Assembly (NCBI RefSeq): GCF_000003815.2
Contig: NC_049987.1
Coordinates: 1,448,065 to 1,512,064, forward strand
DNA length: 64,000 nucleotides
Direction of reading: 5' to 3'
Source: Branchiostoma floridae
Taxonomy: Eukaryota; Chordata; Leptocardii; Amphioxiformes; Branchiostomatidae
Part shown: positions 19,871 to 45,925 of the stretch, piece after piece
Position numbering within the stretch: the stretch's first letter is position 1
Layout of the letters: every line of letters starts with the position of its first letter
The notes under the pieces: generated by a model
Told to the model about the DNA's origin: nothing
The model's database searches: none
Seen by the model: the letters and a program-made list of their open reading frames with translations, nothing else
Translations under genes and position numbers: made by a program

Positions 19871-19949
19871 TCGTTATTGGTCGGGGTACGTAGTTTTGGC
19901 AGTTTTGGGGAATAAAAGGGAACGCATGCAAGAGTTCGTTCTTAAACTT

Positions 19950-22030: not shown

Positions 22031-22867
22031 AGACATTTCTCACTCATGGCTAAACATTCGCTGATTATAGTATTAGTCGGATACGTCATGAACAATGACC
22101 ACACGTCAAAACACATTTTTGCTAGCACAATGGTCAAATAGATCTCGCCAAAGTGTCTCCAACTCCTGGATTTATGTTAATGTGTTTAGGATTTTTTTTC
22201 ATTAAACATGTCCCTTCTGAGAAAATTCAACGGTATAAACACAGTTGGTGCCAAAGATAACATGTAGGGAGTCGCCTTTTATGAATGATATAAAAGTTAT
22301 CGTACCAATTTTCAAACAAAACAAAAGTTTTAAAAACAAGCGATGCCAAGTGGTCCAAAACAAAGACTTGATTCCAATAATAACGTGACGCATGTGTTGT
22401 TATTGTTACTCGTTTTTTTCGGTGATTATAGCAAATGACTAAGCGTTATGAAACCGTATTCATCTCGGGGTGAATTATTAAGTAAACCCTTATTAATGTG
22501 ACACGCATAAAAAAACACAAAGACGATAAGCCATGCGTCAAAACATTCGAAAAAAGTCTCTGCTCAGTTTCACGTTCTTGTTAAATATAATATTTTATAC
22601 AAATGTCTGTCAAATATGATAATAGTGTTGACTCAGAACGTTGTCAAACATTATTCACGAAACATGAGCGCGCAAAAGTAAAGTAAGTATTTAAAATGCT
22701 GTACTGTCCTTACAGGGAATCAATTTTTAAAACAAATATACATTTAGAATGTCTGGCTCTAAACATGAGGACGTAACAACAGATGTATGATCGCTTTAAA
22801 ACCTAGGACCTTTACTTTACTAATTTGATGTTGCTAAACAATAAAAGTAATCCAACTATTGTTATCT

Positions 22868-22884
22868 TTTTTTTTGTTTTTTTA
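22868..22884 (+). promoter_or_regulatory. Probable 5'UTR splice acceptor of the left acidic-protein gene
   Basis: A long T tract ends in TTTTTTTAG, 20 bases before the ATG at 22905. The right paralogue keeps a T-rich tract ending TTTTTTAG at the same distance, and the block TGATGTTGCTAAACAA upstream is also shared. The start codon is therefore probably in exon 2 of the transcript, with a non-coding first exon further upstream that I cannot place. Confidence 0.5.
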
Positions 22885-22904
22885 GTTACACTAAAGAAGC
22901 GAAG

Positions 22905-24320
22905 ATGTCGAAGCTGTGGATAATCCTTGCGTTCCTGTTTCTGGTTAGCCAGACAACGGTGCCAGGTAAGGTCATAAACCCCTATCTATATACAAGTTGA
23001 CTGCATAATTATTACCATGTTTGATTTGGAAACAGTTATCAGGTTTATATTCCATATATTTTATGCATCGATTAAAATTACAATTGTTGGCACCCTCAAA
23101 TCTAAACAGAAAAGATACAACGCCATGGAATAATGGAAAGTTGTAATTTAAAAATATATAATAAAATCGGTATACTATCAAGTTGTGCGTATTTATCGGA
23201 CGTTATTTAAATGTTACAAATCGATTTTTTCTTACGATGCTATTGTTGATATATAATTGTTACCATTGAGTAAGATTGTATTCCGAGACAGATGGATGCC
23301 AACAGACATTGACATTTGACACAAAGTAAAAATAAGACTTGATTTTTTTCCCTCTATGTTGAAATAGTTACCGGTAATCCAGTGGGTGGTGCTGGCGAAG
23401 CTGAAAGCACCACAGGAGGCTACTCGGCAAGCGTCTCTGACGAAGTTGATGGAGGAAGTGGGTCAGGATCCGACTCGGCAAGCGGCTCGGGTGACGACGA
23501 TGCGGAAAGCGGGTCTGGGGGCGACTCGGCAAGCGGCTCAGGTGACGACGATGCGGGAAGCGGGTCAGGATCCGGCTCGGCAAGCGGCTCTGGTGACGAA
23601 GATGCGGGAAGCGGGTCAGGATCCGGCTCGGCAAGCGGCTCGGGTGACGACGATGCAGGAAGCGGGTCAGGATCCGGCTCCGCAAGCGGCTCGGGTGACG
23701 ACGATGCGGGAAGCGGCTCCTCAAGCGACTCGAGTGAAGACGATTCGGGAAGCTGTTCTGCAAGCCCGGGGAGAGGTAGGGGCAGGTATGGAAGCTCCGG
23801 CAGTTCTTCTAACGAGGTGCACTACCACATCCACATCCACAATGGGTGCGGGTCCAGGGGCTGTTCTAGTAGAAGCTGCTCGAAGGAGACCCACATCCAT
23901 ATCCACACAGAAAAGTGCTGCGGAAATGGCGGTGACAGTGGTGAATCGGAAGAGGACGAATCTGAAGAAAGTGCTGAATCTGAAGAGAGTGGATCCGAAG
24001 AAGATGATGCATCGGAGGAGAGTCAATCCGACGAAAATAGCGAATCGGCAGGGAGTGAATCCGGAGGCAGTGGTGAATCGGCAGGGAGTGAATCCGGAGG
24101 CAGCACTGAATCAGCAGATGAGGAATCCGGAGGCAGCACTGACTCAGCAGAAGAGGAATCCGGAGGCAGCACTGACTCAGCAGATGAGGAATCTGGAGAC
24201 AGCACTGACTCAGCAGATGAGGAATCCGGAGGCAGTACTGAAGAGGCGGAAGAGGTACCCGGAGGCGGTACTGAAGAGGCGGAAGAGGTACCCGGAGGCG
24301 GTACTGAAGAGGCGGAATAG
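22905..24320 (+). CDS. Secreted acidic Ser/Gly/Asp-repeat protein with alternating-His/Cys module (left paralogue, 337 aa)
   Basis: Exons are 22905-22965 and 23368-24320, with a GTAAGG donor, a TAG acceptor and phase 1. Residues 1-20 are a signal peptide ([20 protein letters not shown]). About residues 50-140 hold five 17-residue units of the type [17 protein letters not shown]. Then come [11 protein letters not shown] and a core in which EVHYHIHIHNGC (His 172, 174, 176, 178) is followed by a Cys-rich turn and [12 protein letters not shown] (His 196, 198, 200). The C-terminal third is 11-residue units of the type GGSTDSADEES. Alternating His residues would lie on one face of a beta strand and could bind metal; that is inference. 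I do not recognise the family. Compared with the paralogue at 41297-43094 it has half the N-terminal units and ends early at a TAG, after which repeat-like sequence continues. Confidence 0.8.
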
Positions 24321-24480
24321 GAATCCGAAGGCAATATTTGGAGGCAGATCAAGATGAGAATCCGGAGGCAACATTTTATCGCAGATGGAGAATCCGGTAG
24401 CAGCAGTTAATCGGCATAGGGTGTAACAGGAAGCAGTGGTAATGTTGACGAAACCAAATCCAAAGAATTGATGACTGGAA
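24321..24480 (+). pseudogene. Decayed C-terminal tail of the left acidic-protein gene
   Basis: After the TAG stop, GAATCCGGAGGCA-type units continue out of frame. The end (AACAGGAAGCAGTGGTAATG) aligns with the last codons of the right paralogue (ACCGGAGGCAGTAGCAATG). The ancestral reading frame evidently ran about 50 codons further and was lost here by the stop and indels. Confidence 0.6.
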
Positions 24481-27400
24481 AATCGATATGCTGAACACAT
24501 TGTAAGTTGATTCTGTAGAGAGCTCCATGCAAACTCAATACACATTTTATACACGACATATCAACATATCGACAAAAGAAAGCTTAGAGTATTAAGAATA
24601 TTCCATCCCTAAACTACATACAGCACTGCAATACCTGATGGAATTGAATTAGACAGATGTAAAGACCGTATTTTAAGCTTGCTATGTTTACATTGACCAA
24701 TACGTATACACATGTAAACTATTACTACTATTACAATACTTCGAAAAATGTTATGACCCGTGAGGAATGCGCTTAGGTTATTCCTTATAAGATTTCTTCA
24801 GTAAATAATGCATGATTTTTAATGGGGAATCTAAGGGCATCTTTTTATAAATCACAATTGAGGACGATGTGGTCCTTTATTCCCTTTATTTCTCTTCTAT
24901 TCAAGTATGTACTAAACGTTTAATCAATAGCATTTTTTCTTAAACAAGGCCCCATAAACTTGCTTGATTTACGCTTCTTTTACTGTACTCGAATTAATTA
25001 GTTTTACCGTCCCATAGTCCCATAATAGCGAGACAAAGAACATGTTATTGTTACACACATGTTTTAGTAATAATAGACACCATCATTCCCAGTGTTAAAA
25101 TCAACTCTTTTTTTTCTTGTTAGTAATACATGACACTATGATGTTTACGTGAAAATCTACATGAGAATCATTTTACTAGAAGTTGTTAAAACAACAGCAT
25201 GTTTTTTTTTTAAATAGTACTTTAGACAGTAACGTGTTCCCGTAATACTGTAACTACAAAATTACATTATCGTCACGTTAGGACATCCAATGTCCACATG
25301 CACTTCTTATCAAATATGTTTCAATTTAACTTGATACCCTTTATTTTTACTCACAAAAAATATGTTAATGTCACTTATTAAAAATGCTTAAACGCGGTGG
25401 GGAATAAAAAGTGAGGTCACAATATTGTTTTCTGTGTTAATTATCTTACGGTGTGTTTATTATTGTATTTATCTATTATTTGCATCTCTATCTAAAAGAT
25501 ATATTTATTAATTATGCGTTTAAAGAAAATTACCATGTCTTTTATTCGTATTTCACCTCACCTCACCTATCTTTTGACCTCTGTGTTGGTCGTTGGGGCA
25601 CCATGTTTCTATTTAGGGGCATCCAAACCAGTCTTCATTTCTGAATTACCATTTACTGATTCAAATAAAGCTTTTGAAATTCGCCTTTAAACCCGATATT
25701 AAGACAAGGGGAGAGCTTTTCAGACCCGCGCCAACTCTTATGTCTCATAACGGTTGAACGACTTACACTAGAGTCATGAAATGCTTTGAATTTTCTTCAA
25801 ATGTATACAGTTGGCAACATCTTCAATAAGCGCTTCAGAAAGTGGTATTTTGCCTAGGTTTGCATATGTCATAGTTTTCTAGCTTTACAGGGAAAGGCAG
25901 ATGTCCTGATGACGATGCAAACGAGGTTAGAAAATACATTCTAAGTTTTAAAGAGCCCTGCATTATCATGACTGAGTTGATGAGGGGCCCATGTTGGGTC
26001 GGTGTCCCAGCTCAAACAGCCACCCCTCCCCTCAGCCGCTTACCCGTGCACTGAAATCTGATGAATACCAATTAACTCGTAATGGATTCAGGAACGTGTA
26101 TAAATACATATATTCATATAAGATCTATCAGGAAAATAATTCATATTTGTGCATAGCTGCAAAATTTTGATGTGAAATAATGAACTTTATTATATGCTAC
26201 TCCATTCTAAGGAATATGGCCATTTTTCTTTAATCTAATCAAATATCATAATCAATAATCACAATTAAGGACATAAGGACAAGTTGTGGTGATCATATAA
26301 TAGCTATTTATGAGTTAGCATGGGCGAGCCTCAAAAGACCCCCCCCCCCCATCCCAGGTTGACCAAAACAAGCCCAGGCTAAATGGATTAAGAGAGCCAT
26401 TTGCCTAATTTTAATAATAAAAGAAGCTAATTATTTCAGGTTCAACATAATATTTCACCCCCTACATAAAAATTATGGCTGCAAAGAGGGCTTTATATTC
26501 TAAGCATTTTAACAGACACTCACCCGCACCGTTTTGTTAAAGACAAAACAAATCGGTAGGTCATTAGTTTTAAATTTTGCTGAAAGCAAAGTTCAATTTT
26601 ACAAAAAAAAAATAACTGGTATGGCAAATGGCTACATTATGTAGATTTTTTTATTTTTCTAACTCTTTAAAGACCCATTAAACACTCTGAAATAGGATTA
26701 TAGATTCTGAATACCTTTTCAAATATATTTTCATGCTGCTGTAAGAAAATCCTCCTGTTCATAGCGACTTTTCGTGAATACATAATAGAATCATACGTCA
26801 CTGTATATTTGCCAAATTAAGTAGTTTTCCTGTACGGTGTAGAGATCCAAGAAAGGCGACAATTCTTACCATAACCGTTAGAGGGAGCTGCTAGCTTGGC
26901 ATGTATTAAATTAAAGAATGGTAGCATTCCCTGGGTAATCTTCTCTACGGAAATAAATGTTTTGTTACTAATAATGTTCCTAAGTGTGGATTGATCCCTT
27001 TCTTTTATTTTTTGATTTTGGTCAAAGAAAACAAGTACCCACAGCTATAAAATACGAGGACTTTTGTGAAAGATTGAACATTTTGTATACCACAAACACA
27101 TATGGTATACACAAACGCAAACATATACACACACATACTGGTATAATAAGTACATTTATTTTACTTAATGAAAATAATAAAACTACAACTGCTTCATTTG
27201 CATTGATGTAAGAATCAACAATACATAAACGTTACCATTTCCAACATAATGTATGACAACCTTTTTTTTGATTGCTTATTTTCCATCTATTGGAATATGT
27301 AGTTTAATTATTACAACAAATGAACTTTCAGATTACATATCACATGGATCTTAGTTCCTAAGGTCTTTCAGTTCTTTGAGTTCTGGTCTGTGAAAAAAAC

Positions 27401-27483
27401 TTTTCGATAAAAGCCCTGGACTGTTTTGATTTGTGAACAGGTCGAAGTAAATCAGTAACAATGAATATGTTGCCATTTCTGTT
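24481..27483. other. 3' flank of the left gene and inner part of the left arm; no further gene
   Basis: AT-rich sequence. Blocks shared with the right arm are 25397-25426 and 26850-26965. A poly-C repeat with GAGCCTCAAAAG(A)CCC ... TGACCAAAA at 26325-26380 recurs inverted at 38430-38495. The open frame at 25453-25644 is hydrophobic but sits in AT-rich sequence and ends near CAAATAAAGCTTTTG, so it is probably 3' untranslated. Confidence 0.5.
25403..25408 (+). terminator. Candidate polyadenylation signal of the left acidic-protein gene
   Basis: AATAAA lies in sense orientation 1.08 kb after the stop, inside a 30-bp block (25397-25426) that is identical in the right arm. There it is also in sense orientation downstream of the paralogue. 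Confidence 0.45.
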
Positions 27484-27835
27484 TTTATGTCATACCTGTG
27501 ACGCGAAAACGTTCAATACGGATGTTCCGGACCGGGACATACTTTCCGTATAGCACAGGTTCGAAAGGCGTATCACACAGGCTTCCTTCGAGTAAATCAA
27601 ACCATTTCGAACGGGCCGAATACGGCACAGTGGGCAATTCGAATACCGGATTCGGACGTTGGAACATTGCTGTTGCAACACGTTTTGTTCAAAGGCACCA
27701 AACTTGTTCAACTTCCGGCGCATTTCGCATCAAAACATTGGTTTTCTCAGGTGGGTATGACATAAATGAAATACAACACGGTGTATTCCGCATCACTCTC
27801 GGCCCCAGCACGGGCTGTAAATGGGAGAGTGACAA
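27484..27835. mobile_element. Composite MITE, inverted partial copy (B - A)
   Basis: 27487-27767 is the reverse-complement counterpart of part B at 17258-17532, with the same ATGTCATACC / GGTATGACAT termini. It is followed at once by the AATACAACACGGTGTATTCC end of part A, which is truncated at about 27830. The open frames on both strands are shadows of this repeat. Confidence 0.65.
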
Positions 27836-28459
27836 CTTTTGTCTCACGCTTTTAGCTGTGTTTACTTTGCTGCCCTGGTTTGTGTTAACTTAAGGTAATG
27901 TAGGTAACAGGTCCCGCCGGAGAATAATTTAAAATGGATAAAAACATGGTATAAAGCTAGTTGTTAGATATATTGTTGACATAGTATATTATTTTAAGAA
28001 TATCAAACGTGAGAAACAATATTTATCTCACTTTTTGTCACAACAAAAAAATCAAAATCCATATCTACCCTAGTTCACATGTAATGAGACATTCCATAAC
28101 ACAAACATAACATTTCATTGATAAGCACATTATTGACAGATAGATCTCCAAATGAGTGGAATTTGACCACTCCCCCTTTAAATTAGGCCATAATGATGTA
28201 ATAATACCGGTGGCATCTTTCCGACACCGTGTACGAACACGATAGTACGTGCTAGAATTTGGCACAAAAATTACTCGATACCTTATATTCTAAACCATTT
28301 GAAAAATACGAACTTCTTTGCTTCAGACTCTTAAAATGTAATTTTGACTTGAAGAGTTGTGATGTTTCCCAAATTGTTGACGAAACATTTTCTGCATACT
28401 TTTGACAATCTTTAAATACAACTATAGTTCATAGTTTGGAAACTTTTCAAAACACACTT
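27836..28459. other. No gene seen
   Basis: AT-rich intergenic DNA with no frame or motif that can be supported. Confidence 0.35.
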
Positions 28460-28830
28460 ACTTTATCAACCCTGGAAGATCTCATCTTGGAGTTTCTTTG
28501 TCACGTGACGATTGATAAACATTGTCACGTGACACAGTCATGCAGCATAGTCTATATAAATTTTGTAACGCTTTGCAAACATTTGTTGACTTCACTGTAA
28601 TCACAGACATTGCTGGATGTCTATAACGGTGTTCGCGTATGGGGTTGTCAATTCTTTTGTTGTGGCATTCCATTGTTGATTCCATAAATGATCCGAAGTT
28701 CTTCTGCTGAAGTTCGATCATGTTGTTGAAAACTTCCTTTTAAATGTCAAGAAGATCTTTTAGTGTGGACATTGAGACAAGCTCCGAGTCGTCTTTGGTA
28801 ACAGCTTTCTTCCGAGACATGGCTTGGCTT
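28460..28830 (-). pseudogene. LINE ORF1-like remnant
   Basis: The minus strand reads MSRKKAVTKDDSELVSMSTL, then KDLLDI, a stop, and MIELQQKNFGSFMESTMECH, then NKRIDN. This is the K-rich start, (L/V)SMxxLKDLLExQ, and xMxxLQQxNFxxFxxxxMxxxNKRID pattern of ORF1 proteins of invertebrate non-LTR retrotransposons (recognised from memory). There is one in-frame TAA and later frameshifts, so it is a 5'-end relic. Confidence 0.5.
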
Positions 28831-29380
28831 GTCCGGGGGAGGGGGGTGTGCACTGAAACAACAACAACAAAGCGCGGCAACCAACTGGAAGACGAAAATG
28901 GTACAGGGAAACAGCAGAACCTGTAATAACAGAATCTGTGGGATATCAGGGAGACCTACCGGCGAGGGATCCTCTGAGGGAGCCCGCTGCGGTGAATCGG
29001 CTTCGTTGTTTGCTGGGTGATAATGGCTTCGTCCTTTGTTGTGTCACTATGGAGTCACCCTGGAAACGACGCATAATAGATTCATATAAGTGTATATTTA
29101 GTACTTGTCATCATTGTAGCGTAGTTAGCATCATTAAAATTACGTCAAGAACTTATATGACTATGAATTTTCATAACTGAATTAGAATGACTGTCAACAA
29201 TTAAGAAAAAAAGATTATTGACGGGAACAGCCATTAGTTTCTCGTGTTCTGTTTAGAGTCTATTAACGCCGCTATGTCAGTAACCCTTTATTAGGCCACA
29301 CTGATTTCATTTCATAGATCTCATCTGGTCTGAAATGCCACAACGTCAGTGTAATTTGGACTTATTATACCCCAAACTGC
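28831..29380. other. No gene supported
   Basis: The plus-strand frames here begin inside or next to the ORF1 relic and have no domain. The sequence between the relic and the 47-bp repeat shows nothing further. Confidence 0.3.
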
Positions 29381-29521
29381 TAACAGGAGAGGAGCAATGG
29401 GCCAGTCCCTGGCCTAGGCCAAACTTCTAACAGGAGAGGAGCAATGGGCCAGTCCCTGGCCTAGGCCAAACTTCTAACACGATAGGAGCAATGGGCCAGT
29501 CCCTGGCCTAGGCATTTACGC
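29381..29521. repeat. 47-bp unit, three tandem copies
   Basis: Units start at 29381, 29428 and 29475. Each holds GAGCAATGGGCCAGTCCCTG and the palindrome TGGCCTAGGCCA. The third copy has two changes (CACGATAGG). Confidence 0.9.
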
Positions 29522-30120
29522 AGGTAGGCATGCCCCAAAAAGAATTGTATGGACGGGCCTGTAAAAATGTAATGTTCCGCCACAAAATCTTTTTTGTCAA
29601 CGTCGAGAATTGTTGGATTTTTATTGTTTACACTATCACTCATTACATTTTTTTTTTTTTTTGCAGAGGAACTTAATCAAATTTACATTCTATGGCCTCA
29701 ATATTATTATGATGAAAATTATTACTTAAAAGTGCCTATCTGTGGGCATATCTTTGGTACAGACACCGGTATTCTCCGGAAGAAATCAGAATTGCGACGC
29801 AGATTTGGTAGCGCGCAAAACCCGAAATGGGGATGGGAGTGGTAGGGGATGTTAAGGTGTGTTTCAGTAAGGAGGTCGAGGAAAACAACCTGTCACTGGT
29901 ACCGGGCTATAAAAACGCTGGTAGTCTGAGGGATAAATCTCATATAGATAGGATTAAATCAATCAGGGCAAAATGTATTAGTCTGGCACGTACTGCGTGT
30001 AGAAAATCAATATGTTCTTCGTATCGCTCAGCTTTCCATATAAGGACATAGACACCGGTGTTTCTTCAGACTAATCCTGATGTGTTCTGTCATATTCATA
30101 TTTCCTTTGCCGGGAGCGTT

Positions 30121-30146
30121 TATTCTAACGCTACTTGTCTGCACAG
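30121..30146 (+). promoter_or_regulatory. Splice acceptor before the start codon of the NHL receptor gene
   Basis: TTCTAAC, a CTACTTGTCT pyrimidine tract and GCACAG form a good branch point plus acceptor. The ATG follows five bases later, at 30152. The upstream ATG at 30080 is in frame but would lie in the intron, so I chose 30152. An untranslated first exon must lie upstream; a T-tract ending TTGCAG at about 29665 marks one possible exon border. Confidence 0.55.
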
Positions 30147-30151
30147 TAGAC

Positions 30152-33100
30152 ATGTACGAGCAAGCTCAGCCAGTACGTTACCCGGTCTCGGGGTCCGGAA
30201 TCGGACAGACCGCTGGACCATCGTCCCAAACCTCCCATTGCGGTCAACAGCGATTCCGTAAAGACAACAACAGTAAGACGTGCAGTAGTAAGAAAGCAGG
30301 GTCATCTTCAGGTCCGTACGAAGAAGCTGAGGCTGTGTACCATACTATAAATGATCGGGATGTGCCACCGCCTTTACCACATCCTCACCCGGCACAGCAT
30401 TCCGACCAAGAGGCGACGCTACCCCGAGCAGGGACTGGAAACGAAAGCAATCCTGGCAACTTACGTTGCGAAGCACACACATCTACAGGTACCCTTTTAA
30501 AGTCACTTTTTATATCTGTAGATAAATGTTTTGGATTAAACGATTTCTGTGGGTTTGGCTCTTCAGTCTCGCCCTAAATTTTATGTCGCAAAAAGCCCCC
30601 CACACACCAAAAAATACGCTAGTACCACTTAAATTAGTGAATTTTTCTAAGAACTAGTTGAAAATTTAACAATGTTTCAAAATTTGAATTTAGCTAATTT
30701 CGAACTCCTTTATGTTTTCCCGCTGTATTATTTCCTTAACTGAATGCATTTTGCTATTGTTTGTTTTAAATTCAAGTCGGCAGACTAATTTTTGCGTCAG
30801 TGCTGTTGCTATTGACAACACAATCCACGGCAGTATTTATGCAGTTTTTTTACACTTTCCGTTAAGTTAAATGCTGTATACCATTAAATATTTAGAGTAT
30901 CCTATTACCATGATTCCAGTCGAAATAATCATATCATCAAATATCTTACAATCTTCATATTTTACATCATATCCGAAAATTCAGTGGTCATATAATAAGT
31001 CATTTAAGAGTTTCCAATGTTGGCCTCAAAAACTCTGAAAATGGTCACTTCTTAAAGAATTCCTTTTAGTCAAATGCTTCAGAAAGACAAAATTGTATTT
31101 ATTGCATGGCTAAATTGGCATTTTCACAATCCTTTATTTGAGTTGGGGCGGGGGCAAGGTAGCCATGAAGACAGAGAGTTGTCTCCAGGTTCGTCTTTCC
31201 CAAGCCACGGTTAGCTTTTCCTGTAGGCTAAAGGATGTGCAATCTGTGATCTTGTCCTGCATAGCTTTCCGTTGTCGTCCAGAATTGTTTCGTACCCAGC
31301 TATTATTGTGTGTTACAAATCTGTCCTTAACTCATTAATAGGAAAAATAGGATTAGGCCAAATGCCAAGTTAGCCAGGGAGAAAGTATAATCTATTAATT
31401 AATGAGAAACAATGGATTGCCAAATTTCCAAGTTACTTCTCCTCGGCAAACTCTCCTGGATTTTAGAACGGTCATTTAACTTATCTGCTTTTTCCGAAAA
31501 TGTTTTGATTTCTTTTCTACTACGTGGAAGTACATCCTTGTGATATTCGATAAATACTAAAATTTTACATCTAACCCAAAACTTCATCACAACCACCAAA
31601 CGTTTTTCTTCCTGATTAATTCTTTCAAGCATTTTAGTTCTTTGTTACTGGGGTAGGAGGCCGGACTTGCGCACACATCAACTTTTGTAACAGTTATACA
31701 CGTCATTTAATCTTTATTTGTTACCAGTATTCCTTTATTTGAATTTGTTTAGTTTAGTTATGTTTATGTTATTGTATACATATGTATAGTGGTGGCGTTA
31801 ATATAAGTAGTTAACTTGAGTGCGCCACCACTATGTCTATCTTTTCTACTACGTGGAAGTACATCCTTGTCATATTCGATAAATACAAAAATTTTAAATC
31901 TAACCCAAAACTTCATTACAACCACCAAACGTTTTTCTTCCTGATTAATTTTTTCAAGCATTTTAGTTCTTTGTTACTGGGGTAGGAGGCCGGACTTGCG
32001 CACACATCAACTTTTGTAACAGTTATACACGTCATTTAATCTTTATTTGTTACCAGTATTCCTTTATTTGAATTTGTTTAGTTTAGTTATGTTTATGTTA
32101 TTGTATACATATGTATAGTAGTGGCGTTAATATAAGTAGTTAACTTGAGTGCGCCACCACTACGTCTATCTTTTCTGTCAATGAGAATTAAAAAAAAATT
32201 CCAAGTTAGCCAGGGAGGAAGCTTTAGGTACAATCCATTACTAAGAAAACAATTTAGGCCAAAAATAAATGTTAGCCAGGGAGAAATACAGTTTCAAATG
32301 CAATAGGAAACATAACTAATCTTTTTACTTTACTTTGTTTTACTAATTATCAGATAGTTGAGGTTAATCTGGACTTCCGTTTTGAACAGATCGTACATCT
32401 GAAGATGGACCAGACTCCCACCTCTCTCGCTGTAAGCTCATCCGTATCCACATGTACATTGCCATGGCGTTTATGGCTATCATGATTATGGTTGGATTTT
32501 GTCTTATGATGATTGCAAATACTCGGGTAAGTACGAAAAGTACAAAATATATTTATTATTTTCTTTCCTCTTTTTCTCGCCTCCATCTCCTCCTGTGTTT
32601 GTAAACTGTATTTGGAGATAATATATAATGTACTTGAATGTTTGTGACCGTAAACCAACTTTTTCAACTATGTAATTACTATGTCTAGATTGCAATTACA
32701 GCAAATTTGTATGAAACATATTTGTCATAAATGTTCTGTCGATAAAATATTTGCTTTTGTTTAAAATATTCTAGGCATCAATTGGTAATATAAAAATCAT
32801 TGGGTTGTTGCTGCCAAAGTTTGAAAAAAATTCTATTCTTTGTAATTGTTGCTAGTTTTTATTCTTTGCCATATTTTCGACTTTATTTCCACTGCTGTAT
32901 ATATATGTCAGTCAATATTATAATATATACAAAAAATCCACGTAGATAATGACTAAAATATAAAAGTTGTGAATATTTCATTGAAAATCAAAATTAAATT
33001 TGAATTGTCATGTACAATAGTCATTTGCACAGTTGGGACACCAATACTCGTCTTTCATATGTCCTTATCCATACAGTTTGTTTTTTCTCAAAAATAAGTT

Positions 33101-36100
33101 GGAAATTCTTACAATTTCAGGAATTGACAAGACTTTCATCTGCTGTTGAAGTCTTGCAAGGCGACTTGCACAACACATCAAAGAAGCTAACCGCTTTTGA
33201 CACTTTGAAGCGCCGACTGGACTACGACGAAAGCAGAATCACATTCTTAGAAGAGCGTCTCCACGAGATGACCAAGAAATTGGGTAAGCTGAAAATAGAA
33301 TCTTTTACGTTTTTGGTAAATACATCATTTGTAATAAATGTCACCGTTTTTAATTGTGACTGTTATCTTGTCTGTATGGTTGTATTATGTTGGGATTTGC
33401 TACAGTCTGTAGCTAACTAGCTGTGATTGTATGTCTGCATTGTGAGGTTTACAATTGCTTGCAGACATAATGAACTCCAATTGACCAGTGGTTGTTATTA
33501 CCTCCATGAAATGTCATGGAGGTTATATTATATTTCATGGAGGTTATATTTTACCCTACGTTTGTCTGTGTGTCTGTGTGTCTGTCTGTCTGTGTGTAAA
33601 CAAGATAACTCATGAACGGTTGGGTGGATTGGTTTCATACTTGGTGTGTTGGTAGTGTGTGACAAAAGCTGGAAATGATTAGATTTTGGGCCCCCTAGCG
33701 GCTACCCTTGGTACTGCAGCGCCACTTCCGGTTTTGCTATCTCGGTGTTCTGAACATGCTATGGTCACGATTTTTAAGTATTAGATAGCTCTTGTGCTCA
33801 GGAAGAAATGACATAAGTTTGGGCCCCCTAGCATCTAGTTTTGGGATAGCAGGGGCATTTTTGTCAAAAACTTCTGAAGACGATAACTCAAGAAGGGAAC
33901 AATGGATTTTCATGATTTTTGGTATATAGGTACCTTAGACAATGTTTTATAAGATAAGATACTTATTATGCAAAATGGGAGTACATTTGCATAATTAATG
34001 AGAATATTCTATCATAGCAGTTTTTCAATGTATCTCTTGTTCCAGACATGCTATGGTCTTGATATTTAGGTGGTAGATAGCTTTTAGTGCCATGAAAAAG
34101 TGGGGCAAGTTTCAGGCCCCTAACATTTAATTGTGGAACTGCAGGGGTGTTTTTGTCAAGACACTCCAAAGAGGATAACTGTAGAAAGGAACGACGGATT
34201 GCCTGCATTTTAGGCATGCAGGTAGCTTAGGCAAAGATGTTCATAATGATATTCATGTTAAGCAAATGAGGACTTAATTTGCATAATTAATGAGGAAATT
34301 GTATAATTCCATTGTTTCCAATAGCTGGACCTCAATACATGTAACACATGTTGATTATGATAGGTGGAAAATAAGCAGATACCAAATATGGTAATGAGGA
34401 ACTTCTTTGCATAATTTATGTAGAAATTGCAAAACCGCTTTATGATTAATGGGAATTTCATAATTGTGACATGTGTACGTTAGTCAATGATGAACGACAC
34501 CATGCATAAATTATGTTAATGTGTTAGTCAATTGCATGAAATTTACGAAAGCTCTAAATTTTCATGGAGGTATGAGGTCGCCGAACTCTAGTTTGTTACT
34601 GTTATCGATTGTTATCAAACGACTTTTTGTAAACAAAAATTCCTTTAAACTGCGTAATGCAACGATCGCAATGTAATGTTGGAATAATTCTTACAGACAA
34701 TTATGGAGGAGACAAGAACATTACATGTGATATTCAAAAGGTAAGATTTCCTTTACGTTTTCTTTGCCAGAACGACGTTGTGTATGCGGCTGAGCTTTGG
34801 TTGCTTGTTTTTGGGGTGCTTGTGTTTCCAACACTAAAAAAACATTTTCATAATATAAGGTAGGTCGGAAGATGTAAAGGACACAAATGTTCTGTATAAT
34901 TATCATTGTAGTAGTGATAGATTATTTGCATTCTATGATATGTCTGTCAAACATGTGGCATGTGTCTGAGATAAATGGAAGGATAACGAAATATATAATA
35001 CATAAGTAGTTACGGAAATAAAAAACTCATTTCAAAGATTTGTAAGGAAATAATATGATATTGGAGAGTCGTTCTACTTATTTTTGTGCCATGTTAAACA
35101 ACGTAACTATGCCTTCATATGTTCCCAGGACAATCCTACCAAAACATCAACGACGGGCCCATCAAAAACTGACAGCTCTCAGGGTATTTTCCTTTATTTT
35201 ATTTTTTCAGTTCTACATATGGATAACATTTTGTGGTTATGCGTTTATATTAAATTTAAACGCTAATTCAGCAATATGATGTTTTGGAACAGATCAGAAA
35301 TAACTGATTGTTTTTAATATTTAACATCTAACTTAAGATTATTTAGATTGTATCAAGATAACCAGTTAAGGTGTCGTGTATAATACTAAGTGGTGGTTAA
35401 ACAGGGTTTTTCTTTTGCTGTGGATAGAAAATCGTAATATGTTCTTGCGTTGAAAACAGCGTGTTGTTATTTAAGGCATTTTCCATAAAGACCTGTTTAT
35501 GTATTATCGTCATGGAACTACAAAAACTATGCGAGAATGTGATAAAAGAGTCTACCACTGTCTTTAATATGAATTATAAACCTCGTTTATACACCAAATA
35601 TTTATAATAAGTGGTTATGAAGTTTAAACAAATTAATGAACACAAAGTATGGTATGCATACAGAGCGATGCATTTTTTTGTTTTTTTTTTTCACATCTTT
35701 TTCAGTAACTTTTCTATTGCCTTTTTCTTTTGGTTGTTTTGATAAATGTTCAACTAATAGCATATGCTTTGCACACTGTGCATGATCTATCGTAAGCTTG
35801 GGATTTTCAAGTTAAGAAAAACCCATGCGCGCGTCGATGCCATCCATACAACAGAATCTCCCCCACTAAGCATGTTCCAGTGCCAGGCAGCTGCGGTTTT
35901 TCCCCAGATCATGTACTACAATGTAGGTGTATTTGAAGCACCAGCCCGGTATACGTAGTAGGTATTATGTGCAACCAAAAATTAGAAGTAAGCAATATGT
36001 TTGCGTTAAATGTTATGGACTGAAAAGTCATTGTTCACCTTTCGTTATTACCTACCACAGAGAGTTCCAATGAAACTGTTGAATCGAAGATAAGCTTTGG

Positions 36101-36911
36101 TGGGCGTGGATCAGAACCAGGCAAGTTCAACGGTAACTACGGAGTGGCTGTGTCTACTGACAATGAGATCTTCGTGACTGACTACCACAACAAACGGGTC
36201 CAAGTCTTCGGCATGAATGGGGTGTTTCTCCGCCTGTTCCCAACAAAGGTGCTGCTTGAACACAAACACACTCTCATCAACCCTTATGGTGTTGCTGTTG
36301 ACACAATTAGCAATGTTTGGGTTACAGGTGATGATGATGATAATGACCTTCCACAAGTCTATGTGATAAAGTACAGCAGTAAAGGTGGGTTGCCACTCAC
36401 CATTTTCAACAAACGTAAACCAACAAAATACACACCACCTACGATCACCATTGACAAGCGCAATAATAGAATCATCGTGGCAATTTCCAATGAGATTTTA
36501 ATATTCCTACCAAACGGCTCACTTAGTCAGAGTTTTGTTATGACGCAGAGTGAGGGTACAGGTTTATACCCTTTAACACCCAACGAGAATGGTAACGTCA
36601 TTATTGCAGACTACGACAGTGTCCATGTGTACAGTAAGTCTGGTGATCACATGTACTCGTTTAGGGGGGAAGGAAAAGACAAAGGTCAAATGGCGTGGGT
36701 CAGTGGGATTGGCGTTGACAAATCGGGTTACATCATTGTGGCTAATACTGGGAATAACCGTATAGACATGTTCACAAAGCAGGGTGAATTTGTTCGCACT
36801 ATGGTCCGTATGAACGGTCCTGGTGCGTTAGCAATTGGACCAGAAGGACAGCTGGTGGTGACTAGTACTCGTACTGTAACTGTATTCCAACCCCGGGTGG
36901 TCTTTTTGTAA
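30152..36911 (+). CDS. Type II membrane protein with coiled-coil stalk and extracellular NHL beta-propeller (528 aa)
   Basis: Exons are 30152-30488, 32390-32526, 33121-33283, 34697-34740, 35129-35183 and 36061-36911. All introns are GT..AG and phases agree, giving 1587 coding bases. Residues 1-133 are hydrophilic: Y56 and Y63 lie in PYEEAEAVYHTINDRDVP (YHTI fits YxxI sorting or SH2-type sites), followed by PPPLPHPHP. A single hydrophobic helix spans about 134-155, with basic CKLIRIH before it, so the N-terminus is inside. Residues 159-212 form a heptad-like stalk. 213-245 is a short hydrophilic, Ser/Thr-rich linker. 246-528 holds about six NHL-type blades (PGKFNGNYGVAVS ... VTDYHNKRVQVF; GIGVDKSGYIIVANTGNNRI). 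NxS/T sites (NTS, NIT, NET) lie only outside. NHL propellers bind protein, carbohydrate or RNA; the ligand here is unknown. TRIM-NHL proteins are cytosolic and have RING/B-box domains, which are absent here. Confidence 0.88.
30489..32389 (+). other. Intron 1 of the NHL receptor gene; holds a 329-bp tandem repeat
   Basis: The donor is CAG|GTACCC and the acceptor is TTTTGAACAG. No additional exon is evident. The repeat is described separately. Confidence 0.7.
31512..32169. repeat. 329-bp tandem duplication in intron 1
   Basis: Two head-to-tail copies lie at 31512-31840 and 31841-32169, followed by the first bases of a third (CTTTTCT). Each ends in GTGGTGGCG ... CGCCACCAC, a short inverted repeat. 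A partial related segment precedes it. Minus-strand frames MLERINQEEKRLVVVMKF and MLEKINQEEKRLVVVMKF occur in each copy, running on in the first unit to about 31400. I do not recognise that peptide; it may be a relic of an element ORF. Confidence 0.85.
33490..34600. mobile_element. Interspersed repeat in intron 3 of the receptor gene
   Basis: This starts with ACCTCCATGAAATGTCATGG and a second TTTCATGGAGGTTATATT, then a GTCTGTGTGTCTGTCTG run. It ends at TTTTCATGGAGGTATGAGG, so the ends are short inverted CCTCCATGAAA/TTTCATGGAGG motifs. The interior has repeated TTTGGGCCCCCTAG-type blocks and TTTGCATAATTAATGAG. A diverged direct copy is at 39130-39930. Confidence 0.65.
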
Positions 36912-38429
36912 GCTAAGGTTGTACACTTTATTCCCATGATGCTTCGCCATAGGAAGCCTGTAAATTTACTATAGTTTTGTAAAACAATAGGGTAAAAAAA
37001 AAAGATTTAGGGTCTTGTCTGGAAATTTGACTTGGTGGATACTTGTAAGGTCTCGGGGCCGTGTAAAGATGGGCAGCGGACAAGGTACGCGCGGCAGCGG
37101 TTTCGCTGCAATATAAATTGGCAATGTGTTACTCTTGACTTTATAAGGGGATATCACGCAAAACATACAAGCATGACAAACATTTCCCAACGCAGTGACA
37201 TCTAACGGCACCAGCAAACCGCCACCATCAGTTCCTGTGGGCGTCACCACATACCAGCTGTCAGCTAATCAGAGAAAAGGCATTTTTTTCTAAATTTTAA
37301 AAGAGATCTCGCATAAAGGGTAAGCTCATTAATATCAGATTCTATAAGGAAAAGGGTCAGGTACTGATTGTGACGGTTACGATAGTACAGAGTAGAGACA
37401 AGAAGCGGTTTGCTAGTACCGTTGGGTGTTTCTGCATGGGGGAACAATGACAACAAAACAAAGCGTCAACTTATTTTCATCTCTCAATAGAATAAATCTA
37501 TTTAGCACTATTTTGAAACCACTCGGCCGCAGCGACACTACTTAGTTTCAGAGAGACACCGCAAAGAACAAGTAACCTGGCGACTCGATATTGTCCGGGC
37601 CCATATATTTGCTTGGGGCTTTTGCGTAGTAACAAAATAATGGAATTATCTATTTCTTTTTACGTCTGTGTTTTTAAATTGTGTATTAAAATCGAATCGT
37701 GGTGTATGAACTATTTACTTTCGACATCCTGACGTGATATGGCGTTAAGGTTTTATCTTTGGCAATTCATTGCTTTAAGGCTAGAATGGCAAGCAATCTT
37801 TAAGTTACCAACTTGATAGTTTACACCAACTACTGATGGTCGTCTTCGACATGTTCGTAGGTCACATATAATCTATGGTTCTTATTTCAAAGGTCAAAGC
37901 AGTACAGAATTCAATGCACTTTGTATATGATTAATGCAGTACGTAGTCTCAAGGTTAATACATTTAATTGAAAATATATATTTGTAAAAATATACAATTT
38001 ACAAGAAAAGTCTGTTAATATTATGTTAGTAATAGTAACATTTATGCATTGTTGATTCAAGATTGCTTGAATACAGTTGCATTATTTTCATTGAGTACAA
38101 AAAAATTATCGTGCGTATTATATTAGTATGTATATGTTTATGCATGTGAGTGAGTTAGAGCTTGTATGTATTATTTATTACACTTTTTCAGGAAAAAATT
38201 AGAAAAGTATATATATATATATATATATCACTTATCCCACTTTTGTATTACACCGTCAATAAACAATTATAAAGAGGAATATCGAATTCACAATCAATTA
38301 AATTGTCATTCTACAGAGTAGTAAGAATGACATTATGTCACTAATCTGGTACATATATTTTTAAATGGTATGTCTAAGGAACCTCCCACGACTAAGTCAA
38401 TAAAAGAAGTTTATTTTAACCCTATTCAG
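36912..38429. other. 3' flank of the receptor gene; no further gene seen
   Basis: AT-rich. AATAAA occurs at several places (for example about 37490 and 38266) but none can be assigned as the real polyadenylation site. An (AT)n microsatellite is at about 38206-38228. Confidence 0.4.
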
Positions 38430-38500
38430 ACCGGGCTTTTTTTGGTCATCCCTGGACCGGGGGGGGGGGGGGGGGGTCTGGGCTTTTGAGGCCCTCCACT
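38430..38500. repeat. Poly-G dispersed repeat
   Basis: GCCCGGTCTGAATAGGG-type sequence (read on the minus strand), TGACCAAAAA, a run of G (about 18) and GGGCTTTTGAGGCC form an inverted counterpart of 26325-26380. The pair is not in the position expected from the large inverted duplication, so it is probably an independent repeat family. Confidence 0.5.
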
Positions 38501-39129
38501 TCTAAGTCCTATAACTCTAACACGACGTGCCGTGGGGCCACCAAATTTTCAGGACATGATTATGTTGATCATGACGTAAAATTGTTGCCAACAATATTTT
38601 AGGAAAACTCACCATTTTTTTAAAGTCAAGAATACATTATCTGCTTCATGAATGGAATTAATGTGCCCATTCCGATGACTCAAACATATATTCTACCTAC
38701 TTGTATCTTTGCCTATTACAACATCAGCTGGTTATTTTTGCCCGTGTTTGGCATATTGAGCACGGTCAGAGTGCAACAATTTATTTCTTCTGAAATAAGG
38801 CGAATACGGTTACATACGTTCTTTTGGGGCGATAGTGACATTTATAATAAATCATTTATGATGCATAAATTTGTATATCTGTTCATATATGTCGACACTG
38901 TAGGTACTTGTTAACTGACCGAAATTTAAACAACAACAAAATAAAGAAAAAGAAGGAACTGCTATCCGCTCACCCAAACTTTTAGCATCGCTCTCTAAAA
39001 CAAGCATTTATTTTCGTAGAAAAGATCACCCAGGGAACGCGAATATTCTTTCATTCAAATATTGCAAAGCCAGCAGCTCCCTCTAACGGTTATAGTGAGA
39101 ATTGTTGGCTTTCTTGGACTTTAACTCCG

Positions 39130-39930
39130 TAGACTTTAGCGTTTGTTTGTGCAAGATCAGCATAACTGGACAACGCCTAAATGGATTATTAATTTTCGGT
39201 ATGTGGGTAGGTCTTGATGAGATCTGAAAACGATTAGAATTAATGCCATCTAGAGGGCTTTTACGGTACTGCAGTGGAAATTCCGGGTTTGATATCTGCG
39301 GTGATCATTTTTGAGTGGTGGCCGCCATCTCGACACTAACTCTCGCCCTGATGCCGAGAGTATATCAGTTTGGGTCTCCTAGTGCCTTGTTTTAAAACTG
39401 CAGGGCAGGTTCACTGTCAGAATTTGAAAAAAGGAAATAAATAAGGGAGGGATTGACGGATTAATTTGTATGTAGATAGTGACAGTGATGTTTTATTTAA
39501 TTATATGCAAATTTTAATTTGTATAATATATCAGGCAATCGTCTAAACACGCTCAGTACCAATGTAGGAACATTGCAAAATTGTCACATTTGTAACAGAG
39601 AAAGAAAAACTATCGTTGTATGTTATGCAAGATTAAGACCTAATTTGCATGAATTACAAGAACGCGATATACCGTCATAGTGCTAATTGAGGGGAACTTC
39701 TTAATCGTAGAATTTGAAAGTTGTGTACTGTTGAATATCGTTGAACAATCATTATGGAAATGAGGCCCTCTTTTGAATAAATTATCAAAGTACTAAAAGC
39801 ATTATTTGTAAACATAGATTGTGTACTTGTTTTTGGTGGAGATGATTAAGTAGAATGATTTATGCAAAAGGGAACCTCGGCATATTTGACTAAATTTGAT
39901 TCGCAAATGTATGGGGTCGTGAAATTCTAG
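39130..39930. mobile_element. Second, diverged copy of the intron-3 repeat
   Basis: Blocks run parallel to 33600-34600: TGGATT...GGTATGTGGGTAGGT, CTAG(A/C)GGGC...GGTACTGCAG, TTTGGG(T/C)C(T/C)CCTAG, AACTGCAGGG, GGGAGGGATTGACGGATT and the ending GTATG(G/A)GGTCG...ACTCTAG/ATTCTAG. Same orientation as the first copy. Confidence 0.55.
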
Positions 39931-41296
39931 TTTTTGCCATGCAAATCTCTGAAAATTGTTTGCATTGTTTTGGTAAAGCATAGAATATAAGTTCAAATAG
40001 CTGAATTTTCAAGCACAGGGTTTTCTTCCGTTAGGATTTGTAAGTGCCAAGCCAACAATTACGAAAACTTCAACTTATTTTTAAGGTTGTTTTGCAGGCC
40101 ATGTAGAACCTATAATGCCTTTCATGGCGCTATATAATAGAATTTATCTGTATTTGTCATATTAATAAAGTTGTTTTTTTTATAAAAATAGCTGCAATCC
40201 CAAGCTAATGACCTAGCGATGTGTTGTGTTTAAATGAAGAGGTTGTGAAAAGGTGCAAAATGCCTTTAATTTTAGAAACTAACATTAAATCATTTAGGAA
40301 TGGATTAAGAAGCACGTGGACAACAAGCACTTCCAGACGTAATTCTTATATAGGGGGTGATATATTATGGTAAACCTATAATAAATTAATTTCGAGGATT
40401 AAAATAACTAAGCAACCAATGGCTACATTGAGGGTATTTTTTAGTTCAGTCAGTGTGTTATAATTTAGAAATAAAGGCGGAATTAAATCCCTCCCTTCAA
40501 TACGAATGACAAAAATAACTATATATTAAAAAATAGTAATCAATAGATATATAGCCATGCATAATAAACACAAACGAATAATATTGTGACCTCACTTTTT
40601 ATTCCCCACCACGTTACAGCTTTCTTGATAAGCGACAAAAACATAATAAAATGTATTCTCGGATCGGCAGCTAGGAGCGCGATATAGCCAGGCGAACCTT
40701 AGTTTGTACCAGCGGAATACTAATAGCAACGTTGGAAAATACGTTCTGACTGTAACAGGTAGTGATAGAAAATATCGAATTAACCTTAGACAAACAAGTA
40801 ATAGTGTACGAATTTCCATCAATATTATCTTTATGTTGATATCTAAAAGCTTCAACGGATACGGTAGATAACTTTTGGCTTAATTTTTAACTGTCCATTT
40901 CGTTTTTTTTTCTTCTTTCTTTTCTATAGAACTACTTCAATAATAAACTTCCTGGTACGTTTAACGGATTGTTGACGTCAGCTATCCGCAAGATTATGTG
41001 TTAATATGATCATGTTTTTTTTTTTATTTTATAAGTTGCGGGTTTAACATTTCAAATGTTTTGGTGATCAGTATAATCTTGAAAAAGACAAAACTAGTCA
41101 TTTAAAATTTGATCCGTGTATACTTTTTGAATATGATGAGCTTCCATAATAAGATGTTAATCATTTTATGGGAATATCACATACAAACAGGACATGATAT
41201 AGATATAATCTGATAAGCTCTACATGGTGGCAGCAATCTAAGGACTTAGAAGGCAACGATGCATCTATATCTTATATGTGCTGCAAGCAAACTTAT
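39931..41296. other. 3' flank of the right acidic-protein gene; no gene seen
   Basis: AT-rich DNA. It contains the conserved 30-bp block at 40580-40609. The minus-strand frame at 40592-40855 overlaps that block and has no signature. Confidence 0.4.
40598..40603 (-). terminator. Candidate polyadenylation signal of the right acidic-protein gene
   Basis: AATAAA on the minus strand, about 0.7 kb after the stop, within the 30-bp block identical to 25397-25426. Confidence 0.45.
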
Positions 41297-43094
41297 TCAG
41301 TTGGGCTCTTCGTCATTGCTACTGCCTCCGGTTTCGCCACCCGTCGAATCACCATTGCTTCCGGTTTCTCCTTCGGCCGATTCACCACTGACTCCGGTTT
41401 CTGGCTCTGCCGATTCCCCACTGCCTCCGCTTTGTCCCTCTGCCGATTCACCACTGCCTCCATTTTCTGCCTCTGCCGATTCACCACTGCCTCCGCTTTG
41501 TCCCTCTGCCGATTCACCACTGCCTCCGCTTTGTCCGTCTGCCGATTCACCACTGCCTCCGCTTTGTTCCCCCACCGATTCACCACTGCTTCCGCTCTGT
41601 CCCTCCGCCGATTCACCACTGCCTCCGCTTTGTCCCTCCGCCGATTCACCACTGCCTCCGCTTTGTCCCTCCGCCGATTCACCACTGCCTCCGCTCTGTC
41701 CCTCCGCCGATTCACTACTGCCTCCGGAATTGCTTTCCGCTGATTCGCTATTTTCCTCGGATTGGCTCTCCTCCGATTCCTCACTTTCTTCACATTCGTC
41801 CGATTCACCACTGTCACCGACATTTGCGCAGCTATTTTCAGTGTGGATATGGATGTGGGTCTCTTGCGAGCTGGCTCTACTAGAACAGGACTTGCCCCTG
41901 GACCCGCACCCATTGTGGATGTAAATGTGGTAGTGCACCTCGTTAGAAGAACTGCCGGAGCTTCCATACCTGCCCCTACCTCTCCCCGGGTTTGCGGAAC
42001 AGCTTCCCGAATCGTCGTCGCTCGAGTCGCTTGAGGAGCTGCTTCTCTCATCATCGTCACCAGATCCACTTGTTAAGCCGCCTTCTGACGCGCTTCCCGC
42101 ATCGTCGTCACCAGAACCGCTTGCTGAGTCGCCTCCAGACTTGCTTCCCGCATCGTCGTCACCAGAGGCGCTTGCCGAGCCGGATTCTGATCCTGACCCG
42201 CTTCCCGAATCGTCGTCACCAGAGCCGCTTGCCGAGTCGCCTCCTGACCCGCTTCCCGCATCTTCGTCACCAGAGCCGCTTGCCGAGTCGGATCCTGACC
42301 CGCTTCCCGCATCTTCGTCACCAGAGCCGCTTGCCGAGTCGCCTCCAGACGCGCTTCCCGCATCGTCGTCACCAGAGCCGCTTGCCGAGTCGCCTCCTGA
42401 CCCGCTTCCCGCATCTTCGTCACCAGAGCCGCTTGCCGAGCCGGATCCTGACCCGCTTCCTGCATCGTCGTCACCCGAGCCGCTTGCCGAGCCGGATCCT
42501 GACCCGCTTCCTGCATCGTCGTCACCCGAGACGCTTGCCGAGCCGGATCCTGACCCACTTCCTTCATCAACTTCGTCAGAGACGCTTGCCGAGTAGCCTC
42601 CTGTAGTGCTTTCAGCTTCGCCGGAACCAGCCACTGGATTACCGGTAACTATTTCAACACGGAGGGAAAAGAATCGAGTTTAATTTTTACTTTCTAAATA
42701 TTAATGGTTGCTGGCATCCATCTGTTCCGGAATACAATCTTAATTAATGGTAACAGTTATATATAAACCATAACATCGTAAAAAATCATTTGATTTGTAA
42801 TAAAATAATGTCCGATACAATACTTTCCATTGCGTAGCGTAGTACATGGCGTAGAACTTTTTCCCTTTAGATTTGAGGGTGCCAACAATTGTAATTTTAA
42901 TCTATGCATTAAAAAATATGGAATATTATAAACCTGGTGACTGTTTCAAACATTAAACATCGTAATAATCGATATTGAATTCTGTTAACATGTATATTTC
43001 TATTTCTAAATACAGGTGAGTTTTTGTGCTTACCTGGCACCGTTGTCTGGCTGACCAGAAACACGAACGCAAGGACAAGCAACAACTTCGACAT
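41297..43094 (-). CDS. Secreted acidic Ser/Gly/Asp-repeat protein with alternating-His/Cys module (right paralogue, 470 aa)
   Basis: Minus-strand exons are 43094-43034 and 42648-41297, with the same phase-1 intron as the left gene. The signal exon matches the left one at 54 of 61 bases by eye ([20 protein letters not shown]). Ten 17-residue units ([17 protein letters not shown] type) follow. Then come [13 protein letters not shown], the core [12 protein letters not shown] (one His of the left copy is Tyr) with a Cys-containing turn and [12 protein letters not shown], and finally about thirteen 11-residue units of the type [11 protein letters not shown] ending in DEEPN. Its reading frame is complete, so this is probably the better model of the ancestral protein. 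Extracellular; function unknown. Acidic Ser-rich repeats suggest calcium or matrix interaction and His strands suggest transition-metal binding, both inferred. Confidence 0.82.
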
Positions 43095-43624
43095 CTTCGC
43101 TTTCGTCAGTATATCTAAAAAAACAACAACAACAAAAGTTCACAATATTTGGATTACTTTTGTTGTTTAGCAACATCAAATTCCCTAAAGTAAAGTGCCT
43201 AGGTCTAAAAGCGTTCACACTTTTCTTGTATGTTCATCAAATTGAGGGCCAGGCATCTTAAATGTATAATTGAAGAATTTTAAGAATTAATTTTCGGTAA
43301 GGACAGAGACCAGCTGGCTCGTGATGTGGGGTTGCGGGTTGATGACTTAGAGAATGCTATTAGGGACAGAGACGTTTGGAAGAAGAGAGTGGACCTGGTC
43401 CGCGCTTGCCCGTGAGGATAATGAAGGACACTACACCATTCTAAATACTGCTTTTAGACTTTAGTTTTGCGCGCTTATGTGTCGTAAAAAATGATTTGAC
43501 ACAGCGTTCAGAGTACACACTATTGATTCGAGCCCATAACACCGAGGAAGCCACACGGCGAAACATGTTTGTTGTGTGTCGGTTCAAATCAAGTTTCTAA
43601 ACGGGGAACATGCGGCTCCATCGT

Positions 43625-44830: not shown

Positions 44831-45239
44831 GCTCTTTGTCTATTGTAATGATTGTATAAATCTAGACTGCTGAACATTATTCTGCGAAGTTTGAGCGCTC
44901 AAAAGCACTTAAACGTTGAAGGCTTACAAGGGACATTATTCAGTACGAAAACAACGTAATGTTTGGAATAGTAAAATCTAGGAAAACGATATAGCAAAAT
45001 TAAGGTCAAGGGGGGTTGCCTGAAGATTTTTTGTTTTTTAATACCATGCCCATGAATTACGTGCCTCCCAATTCTTTGAAGGGCACCATGCTTTGATAAA
45101 ATTATGGATTGGTTTTGACTGTAGGTCTTAGACCTCTTTAGGTGGCAAATAGAAGAATATTTCGTAAACGAACTCTCAAATGCGTTCTCACTCATTCACA
45201 ACAGCTGACAACACAAGTACCCCTGGCATGGAACGAAGG

Positions 45240-45925
45240 CGAAGGTAGTTGAAGCGGTAGGCTCACGTAACGGAGAGCTTTAAGCAAGGTTAACGGAGCG
45301 CAGGGCGCAAAAACAACAGAAAGAGGCTTGCAAAATGAGGCACGCGAAAGTAACAGAGAGCTACGACGAGCGAAGCTATCGGAAAGCGGCGCACGAAGCT
45401 AACACACGGATGGCTACGAGCAAAACTAATGGGGATCGATGGCGAAGCTACCGGACAGCAGGGCAATAAGCTATGGAAAATAGGACACAAAGCTACAGGA
45501 GAGTGGGACACGAAGCTACAGGAGAGTAGGGCACTAAGCTACAGGAGAGTGGGGCACTAAGCTATGTAAAATAGCACACGAAGCTGCAGGTGAGTGGGGC
45601 ACGAAGCTACAGGAGACTGGGCCACGTAGGTACAGGAGAGTGGGGCACGAAGCTACAGGAGAGTGGGGCACGTAGGTACAGGAGAGTGGGGCACTAAGCT
45701 ACAGGAGAGTGCGGCACGAAGCTGCAGGAGAGTGCGGCACAAAGCTACAGGAGAGTGCGGCACAAAGCTACAGGAGAGTGCGGCACAAAGCTACAGGAGA
45801 GCGCGGCACAAAGCTACAGGAGAGCGAGAACGAAACTAACGGAGAGCGAGACGGAAAGTTAACGGAGCGGACACGAATCTTACGGGGAGCGGAGCATAAA
45901 GCTAACGGAGGGCATGGGCGGCAAA
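45240..45925. repeat. 23-bp minisatellite, right arm
   Basis: About 15 good units of CTACAGGAGAGTGGGGCACG plus AAG at 23-bp spacing (best between 45490 and 45830), with degenerate units on both sides. Read on the minus strand, this is the counterpart of the left array (TTCGTGCCCC-ACTCTCCTGTAGC against TTCGTGCCCC-GCTGTCCGATATC). Confidence 0.85.

Follow-up and report, generated by a model that had tools for sequence, protein, structure and literature searches.

Genes for a probable lineage-specific family of secreted acidic repeat proteins with an unusual His/Cys core in Branchiostoma floridae

The window analysed here is a stretch of 64,000 nucleotides from the lancelet Branchiostoma floridae (contig NC_049987.1; G000:C9:1448065-1512064 of an assembly of 513,431,437 bases in 431 contigs). 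It carries an inverted pair of genes, designated A and B, and a third copy, designated C, is present 225 kb from the pair. A first-pass annotation of the window had proposed that A (22905-24320, + strand) and B (41297-43094, - strand) are two-exon genes for a secreted acidic repeat protein. The exons, strands and ends proposed for the two genes were recovered in gene models that contain no internal stop and encode proteins of 337 (A) and 470 (B) residues, and the likeness between the two genes is beyond chance (blastn E = 0.0). Both proteins begin with MSKL followed by a hydrophobic stretch, whose mean hydropathy is 2.84 in A and 3.18 in B, whereas from residue 21 on the maximum is 0.09 and 0.06, respectively. 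Judged from this hydropathy, A and B likely carry an N-terminal signal peptide. Of the 61 bases of the exon encoding it, 54 are the same in A and B, as counted in the first-pass annotation, and the proposed common intron was confirmed in position and phase (phase 1, after codon 20, with a GT donor and an AG acceptor in both genes). Its length is 402 bases in A, 385 in B and 1277 in C. A polypyrimidine-AG sequence lies 19-20 bases upstream of the ATG in all three copies, and a further 5' non-coding exon is therefore possible, so that the two-exon layout is putative.

The rest of each protein comprises an N-terminal arm (N-arm), a core and a C-terminal arm (C-arm), as listed in Table 1. Tandem Repeats Finder detected periods of 51 bases (17 residues) and 33 bases (11 residues) in A and B, which agrees with the 17-residue acidic repeat and the 11-residue C-terminal repeat first described by eye. 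With GD[DE]D as the anchor, A contains 5 and B 10 of the 17-residue units. Matches to the 11-residue unit number 8 in A and 13 in B, and 20 of these 21 were used for counts. Arm length differs between the copies through gain or loss of units. The arms consist of 24-33% Ser, 14-30% Gly and 21-40% Asp plus Glu, and the calculated pI of both mature proteins is 4.05. N-glycosylation sequons are absent from A and B. Degenerate 11-residue units seem to run on past the stop codon of gene A (window 24321-24420), and its C-arm may once have been longer. The core, also described in the first-pass annotation as common to both genes, shows an identity of 86% between the two. It contains every His of the proteins (7/7 in A, 6/6 in B and 6/6 in C) and most of the Cys (6/6, 4/5 and 5/6, respectively).

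When the whole genome was searched at the protein level with the core of A, three real matches were obtained, corresponding to A, B and C (E values of 1e-39, 1.4e-29 and 2.7e-23). A fourth match with an E value of 5.75 was taken as noise, having two stops inside. Copy C (G000:C9:1246432-1243698, - strand; exons 1246432-1246372 and 1245094-1243698) is open over 485 residues and agrees with A and B in the signal exon, the phase of the intron, the two arms and the core. Just upstream of its first exon, near the possible leader splice acceptor, the homology is broken by about 2.5 kb (L009 6461-8969) that are nearly without a match in the window.

Table 1. Features of the A/B locus, in window coordinates
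Feature	Position	Strand	Basis or remark
Gene A exon 1, signal peptide, phase-1 donor	22905..22965	+	54/61 identical to B; h-region mean hydropathy 2.84
Gene A exon 2, remainder of 337-residue protein	23368..24320	+	gene model; in-frame indels
Gene A N-arm, 17-residue Ser-Gly/Asp repeat	23454..23716	+	Tandem Repeats Finder, unit counts
Gene A His/Cys core (His 7, Cys 6, mature Lys/Arg 7 of 7)	23745..23957	+	
Gene A C-arm, 11-residue repeat	24042..24333	+	array extends beyond stop codon at 24320
Gene B exon 1, signal peptide	43034..43094	-	gene model
Gene B exon 2, remainder of 470-residue protein	41297..42648	-	gene model; in-frame indels
Gene B N-arm, 17-residue repeat	42041..42603	-	Tandem Repeats Finder, unit counts
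Gene B His/Cys core	41795..42010	-	core alignment
Gene B C-arm, 11-residue repeat	41321..41726	-	Tandem Repeats Finder, unit counts
Left arm of inverted duplication, holds gene A	13885..27268	.	collinear inverted matches, 64-89% identity
Right arm of inverted duplication, holds gene B	38003..49926	.	collinear inverted matches, 64-89% identity
Span between copies matching C locus, holds NHL-repeat gene	29537..37007	+	Pfam NHL; C-locus matches; limits of the matching span, not a gene model

We then considered whether these frames are actually coding. All 26 gaps of the exon-2 alignments have a length divisible by three (5/5, 11/11 and 10/10), as do only 5 of the 27 intron gaps (3/10, 0/8 and 2/9), although the counts come from three pairwise comparisons that are not independent and some gaps correspond to entire repeat units, the period of which is divisible by three in any case. 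Between A and B, 29 of the 372 sites of unique coding sequence are different, and in the intron 66 of the 356 sites (P = 1.6e-5, Fisher test). The unique coding part includes 21 successive codons (63-83 of the comparison) without any difference, a run that could be a gene-conversion tract, possibly contributing to the low coding divergence. It might be supposed that the loci are tandemly repeated DNA in which frames happen to be open, or gene copies that are silent. Several frames are indeed open, for instance the second + frame, with 323 residues at 23386-24357, because the repeat periods are divisible by three; in addition, the A-B substitutions in the unique coding part fall on the three codon positions in numbers of 10, 7 and 12, with no significant concentration at the third position (P = 0.23). 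On the other hand, the signal exon, splice sites, intron phase and core have been kept in three copies, and both the in-frame indels and the lower divergence of the coding part, notwithstanding a possible share of gene conversion in the latter, speak against this explanation, which we regard as very improbable. The coding status of A, B and C is well supported.

The proteins are rich in Ser-Gly pairs, which number 35 in A, 62 in B and 43 in C, compared with means of 19.0, 33.1 and 21.9 in shuffled sequences. The observed value was reached by none of 1000 shuffles in A or B, and the shuffled maximum for C was 36. At least two acidic residues lie within six positions of the pair in 31 of 35 cases in A and 57 of 62 in B. 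As tandem copying inflates such counts, a single consensus repeat unit was also permuted. Of the six Ser residues in the consensus 17-residue unit, five stand directly before Gly (P = 0.008 by permutation). All 15 units from A and B have retained the Ser ahead of GD[DE]D, which is encoded by three different codons among them; the invariance of GD[DE]D itself was discarded as evidence, being a product of the selection of units by that pattern. A search of C with the pattern S[GS]D[DEGA] gave 11 sites, two of which have Ser in place of Gly.

According to the consulted passages of one source, a xylosylated Ser typically precedes Gly near an acidic cluster (PMC8418075), and the sites of human urinary proteins are described, in the part consulted of another, as lying in disordered or low-complexity stretches (PMC10424144). 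The 17-residue N-arm repeat supports a proteoglycan-like character beyond what composition gives, and the C-arm repeat does not. Taking these features together with the concentration of His, Cys and, in A and B, Lys and Arg within the core, we tentatively propose, at a little less than an even chance, that A, B and C make up a small family, specific to the lineage, of polyanionic proteins that are secreted into a matrix or stored in granules and function as core proteins of a proteoglycan-like kind. Guided by the signal peptide, the proteins would enter the secretory path, where Ser-Gly pairs with acidic neighbours, especially those of the 17-residue N-arm repeat, would be xylosylated at their Ser and receive chondroitin- or heparan-sulfate-type chains. 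The sugar chains would make the arm extended and hydrated, its length being set by the gain and loss of repeat units. The core would join molecules through its four invariant Cys residues, by disulfide formation, and through paired His-bearing stretches able to bind zinc or copper, and the joined cores would give rise to a cross-linked gel or a packed granule. The C-arm would perhaps be phosphorylated in addition.

The composition of the arms would also suit a secreted acidic phosphoprotein, on which a Fam20C-like secretory kinase acts and which serves in calcium binding or as a coacervate or adhesive, without sugar chains. Besides the 21-40% of Asp plus Glu in the arms, this possibility is favoured by the S-x-E sites of B, which number 30 against 14.8 in shuffled sequences (0 of 1000 shuffles reach 30), 27 of them on the C side, and by the 26 sites in the C-arm of C, a raw count with no shuffled baseline. 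In A, however, S-x-E sites are not enriched (16 against 12.9 in shuffled sequences, a value reached by 179 of 1000), the N-arms hold only 0-2 such sites, and neither A nor B shows an enrichment of CK2-type sites. Dentin phosphoprotein has an Asp-Ser-Ser pattern with Ser-Asp repeats in excess; in A and B, by contrast, Ser-Asp and Asp-Ser pairs are below the shuffled values (13 against 17.8 and 15 against 24.9, respectively). We consider a phosphoprotein without sugar chains possible but rather unlikely. It is also possible that each protein has one arm of each kind, sugar-bearing and phosphorylated.

The core was examined with respect to its His and Cys residues. Alternating His/hydrophobic stretches are present in A (HYHIHIH and THIHIH), and HxHxH occurs three times in A and once in B, numbers that none of 1000 shuffles attained in either protein. 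Five His residues, two in the first stretch and three in the second, and four Cys residues are invariant in all three copies. The His residues raise the possibility of a metal-handling protein, in which the alternating-His core is the working part, engaged in the capture, delivery or detoxification of zinc or copper, and the arms are only solubilising spacers. A precedent is provided by designed peptides, whose alternating-His strands bind zinc as far as the consulted text of PMC8431744 describes them. The first His stretch, however, is not kept whole, as one His is replaced by Tyr in B and another by Asp in C. Furthermore, conservation does not set His and Cys apart from the other residues, because 51 of the 77 columns of the core alignment are invariant anyway, and for this reason the invariance of His was discarded as evidence of function. 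AlphaFold2, run on the core with a two-sequence alignment, gave no confident model and no secondary structure (mean pLDDT 50.2, pTM 0.16), and a hairpin in the core is a guess. We judge a purely metal-handling role improbable. A related and still more speculative idea, which we think has only a slight chance of being right, is that a natural animal protein uses alternating-His strands, elsewhere a product of design in zinc-binding and catalytic amyloid peptides, as a metal-triggered cross-link between two glycosaminoglycan-bearing arms, so that one chordate lineage would possess a self-assembling metalloproteoglycan.

The proposal of a proteoglycan-like core protein has to be weighed against a number of results that count against it. 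Two of them have just been given, namely the lack of any special conservation of His and Cys and the AlphaFold2 result for the core. The Pfam scan of A and B matched no proteoglycan family model; Pfam includes models for serglycin and syndecan. In the 11-residue C-arm units, Ser-Gly is not enriched beyond composition (P = 0.33 in B and 0.53 in A). The Lys and Arg residues of the mature protein, which in A (7 of 7) and B (6 of 8) lie mostly within the core, are found there in only half of the cases, 7 of 14, in C. The dN/dS comparison put forward in the first-pass annotation, carried out over 96 codons, gave 0.38 for A-C, which is below the neutral expectation (P = 0.017 in a neutral simulation), while A-B (0.57, P = 0.19) and B-C (0.67, P = 0.14) did not depart significantly from neutrality; selection on the protein thus appears weak at best. 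Finally, in human urinary proteins the acidic residues are mostly N-terminal to the Ser, according to the consulted part of PMC10424144, whereas in the 17-residue unit the Asp cluster is C-terminal to the Ser-Gly pair.

Several known systems resemble the putative proteoglycan core proteins in part. Serglycin, a vertebrate granule proteoglycan, is likewise a small secreted core with dense Ser-Gly repeats and acidic residues, but A and B are without a Pfam match and possess two different repeat arms together with a His/Cys core. Dentin phosphoprotein and the acidic Ser/Asp matrix proteins are also highly acidic, Ser-rich, variable in repeat length and secreted; in A and B, unlike dentin phosphoprotein, it is the Ser-Gly pairs that exceed the shuffled values and the Ser-Asp pairs that fall below them. 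Among the chondroitin core proteins of C. elegans, the consulted part of PMC11632948 lists CPG-7, -8 and -9 with disordered and low-complexity domains only, and describes the cores as poorly conserved across species. An orphan core protein would therefore not be odd. The likeness to CPG-7, -8, -9 and others lies in these disordered, low-complexity and poorly conserved cores, and is drawn from descriptions rather than from sequence alignment; CPG-1 and -2 have chitin-binding domains, which are absent from A, B and C, and sugar chains have been shown on the C. elegans proteins, whereas those of A, B and C are deduced. The designed zinc-binding amyloid peptides of the IHIHIQI type similarly alternate His with Ile or Tyr, but are synthetic and seven residues long, while the motif of A lies within a large acidic protein known from its sequence.

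The view of the first-pass annotation that no named family has this layout was upheld in the databases searched, as the full A and B proteins match no Pfam family at E <= 1 and the core of A matches no PDB chain at E <= 10. The AZUL family (Pfam PF16558) gave a weak match to 26 of the 58 residues in the core of A, with 12.1 bits, below the cut-off of 23.8 (E = 0.24), and A was not regarded as a member. Pattern searches gave 63 matches in viral contigs and 18 in bacterial and archaeal genomes, none of which was confirmed, and no match in plasmids; these collections are without animal genomes and say little on other lancelets, in which orthologs are expected. Six peptide strings of the family were absent from the open-licence literature searched, and none of the literature listed on lancelet proteoglycan cores or similar proteins concerns the family. 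A, B and C probably represent an undescribed lineage-specific secreted acidic repeat protein of proteoglycan-like character with an unusual His/Cys core.

The surroundings of A and B, including a larger inverted duplication that the first-pass annotation had missed, and those of copy C were compared as well. Inverted similarity runs in order far beyond the two genes, about 13.9-27.3 kb against 49.9-38.0 kb, with 64-89% identity. Among the matches listed, translated matches of the outer arms (12-22 kb against 43.6-52 kb) occur in several frames, on both strands and across stops. Protein-coding flanks were set aside on this ground, and the outer duplicated arms look non-coding. Related 23-base minisatellites are found at matching places of both arms (window 18175-18732 and 45443-45910). 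The possibility that two haplotypes had been joined head to head in the assembly was regarded as unlikely, since the intron identity of 81% between A and B and the 64-89% identity of the inverted matches look too low for alleles, and the third copy 225 kb away also speaks against it. The chromosome-scale assembly of B. floridae is described, in the consulted part of PMC7269912, as haplomerged and comprising 19 chromosomes.

The gene between the copies, taken for a receptor in the first-pass annotation, showed only NHL repeats (Pfam NHL, E 3.4e-12 within 36024-36911, with sequence matches to the NHL structures of Thin and TRIM71), and the receptor label rests on a likeness of the tail. A unit of 329 bases is present in two copies, 97% alike, within the span containing this gene (window 31511-32176). 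A second NHL gene, 80.7% identical to that of the window over 275 residues, adjoins C on the opposite strand, and the two occupy G000:C9:1232902-1246432 in a convergent arrangement like that of the window NHL gene and gene B. A and B do form an inward-facing inverted pair, as had been proposed; that their position around the NHL gene marks a special unit did not hold, since the C locus likewise combines an NHL gene with one repeat gene. The duplicated block probably consisted of the NHL gene plus one repeat gene. Towards the end of the window, a phosphatidylethanolamine-binding protein-like fragment (61074-61184; Pfam E 2e-4, 22.1 bits, just under the cut-off of 24) and a C2H2 zinc-finger fragment (62751-62819; Pfam E 8.4e-6) were also observed.

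The alternating-His stretches of the core correspond to short peptides that are open to direct zinc-binding and assembly assays, and the three copies with their unequal arms constitute a natural series for the effect of arm length on the product. Lancelets frequently serve as stand-ins for the ancestors of vertebrates. If it is true that the arms carry sugar chains, A, B and C would represent a proteoglycan core protein in this chordate group that would escape homology searches.

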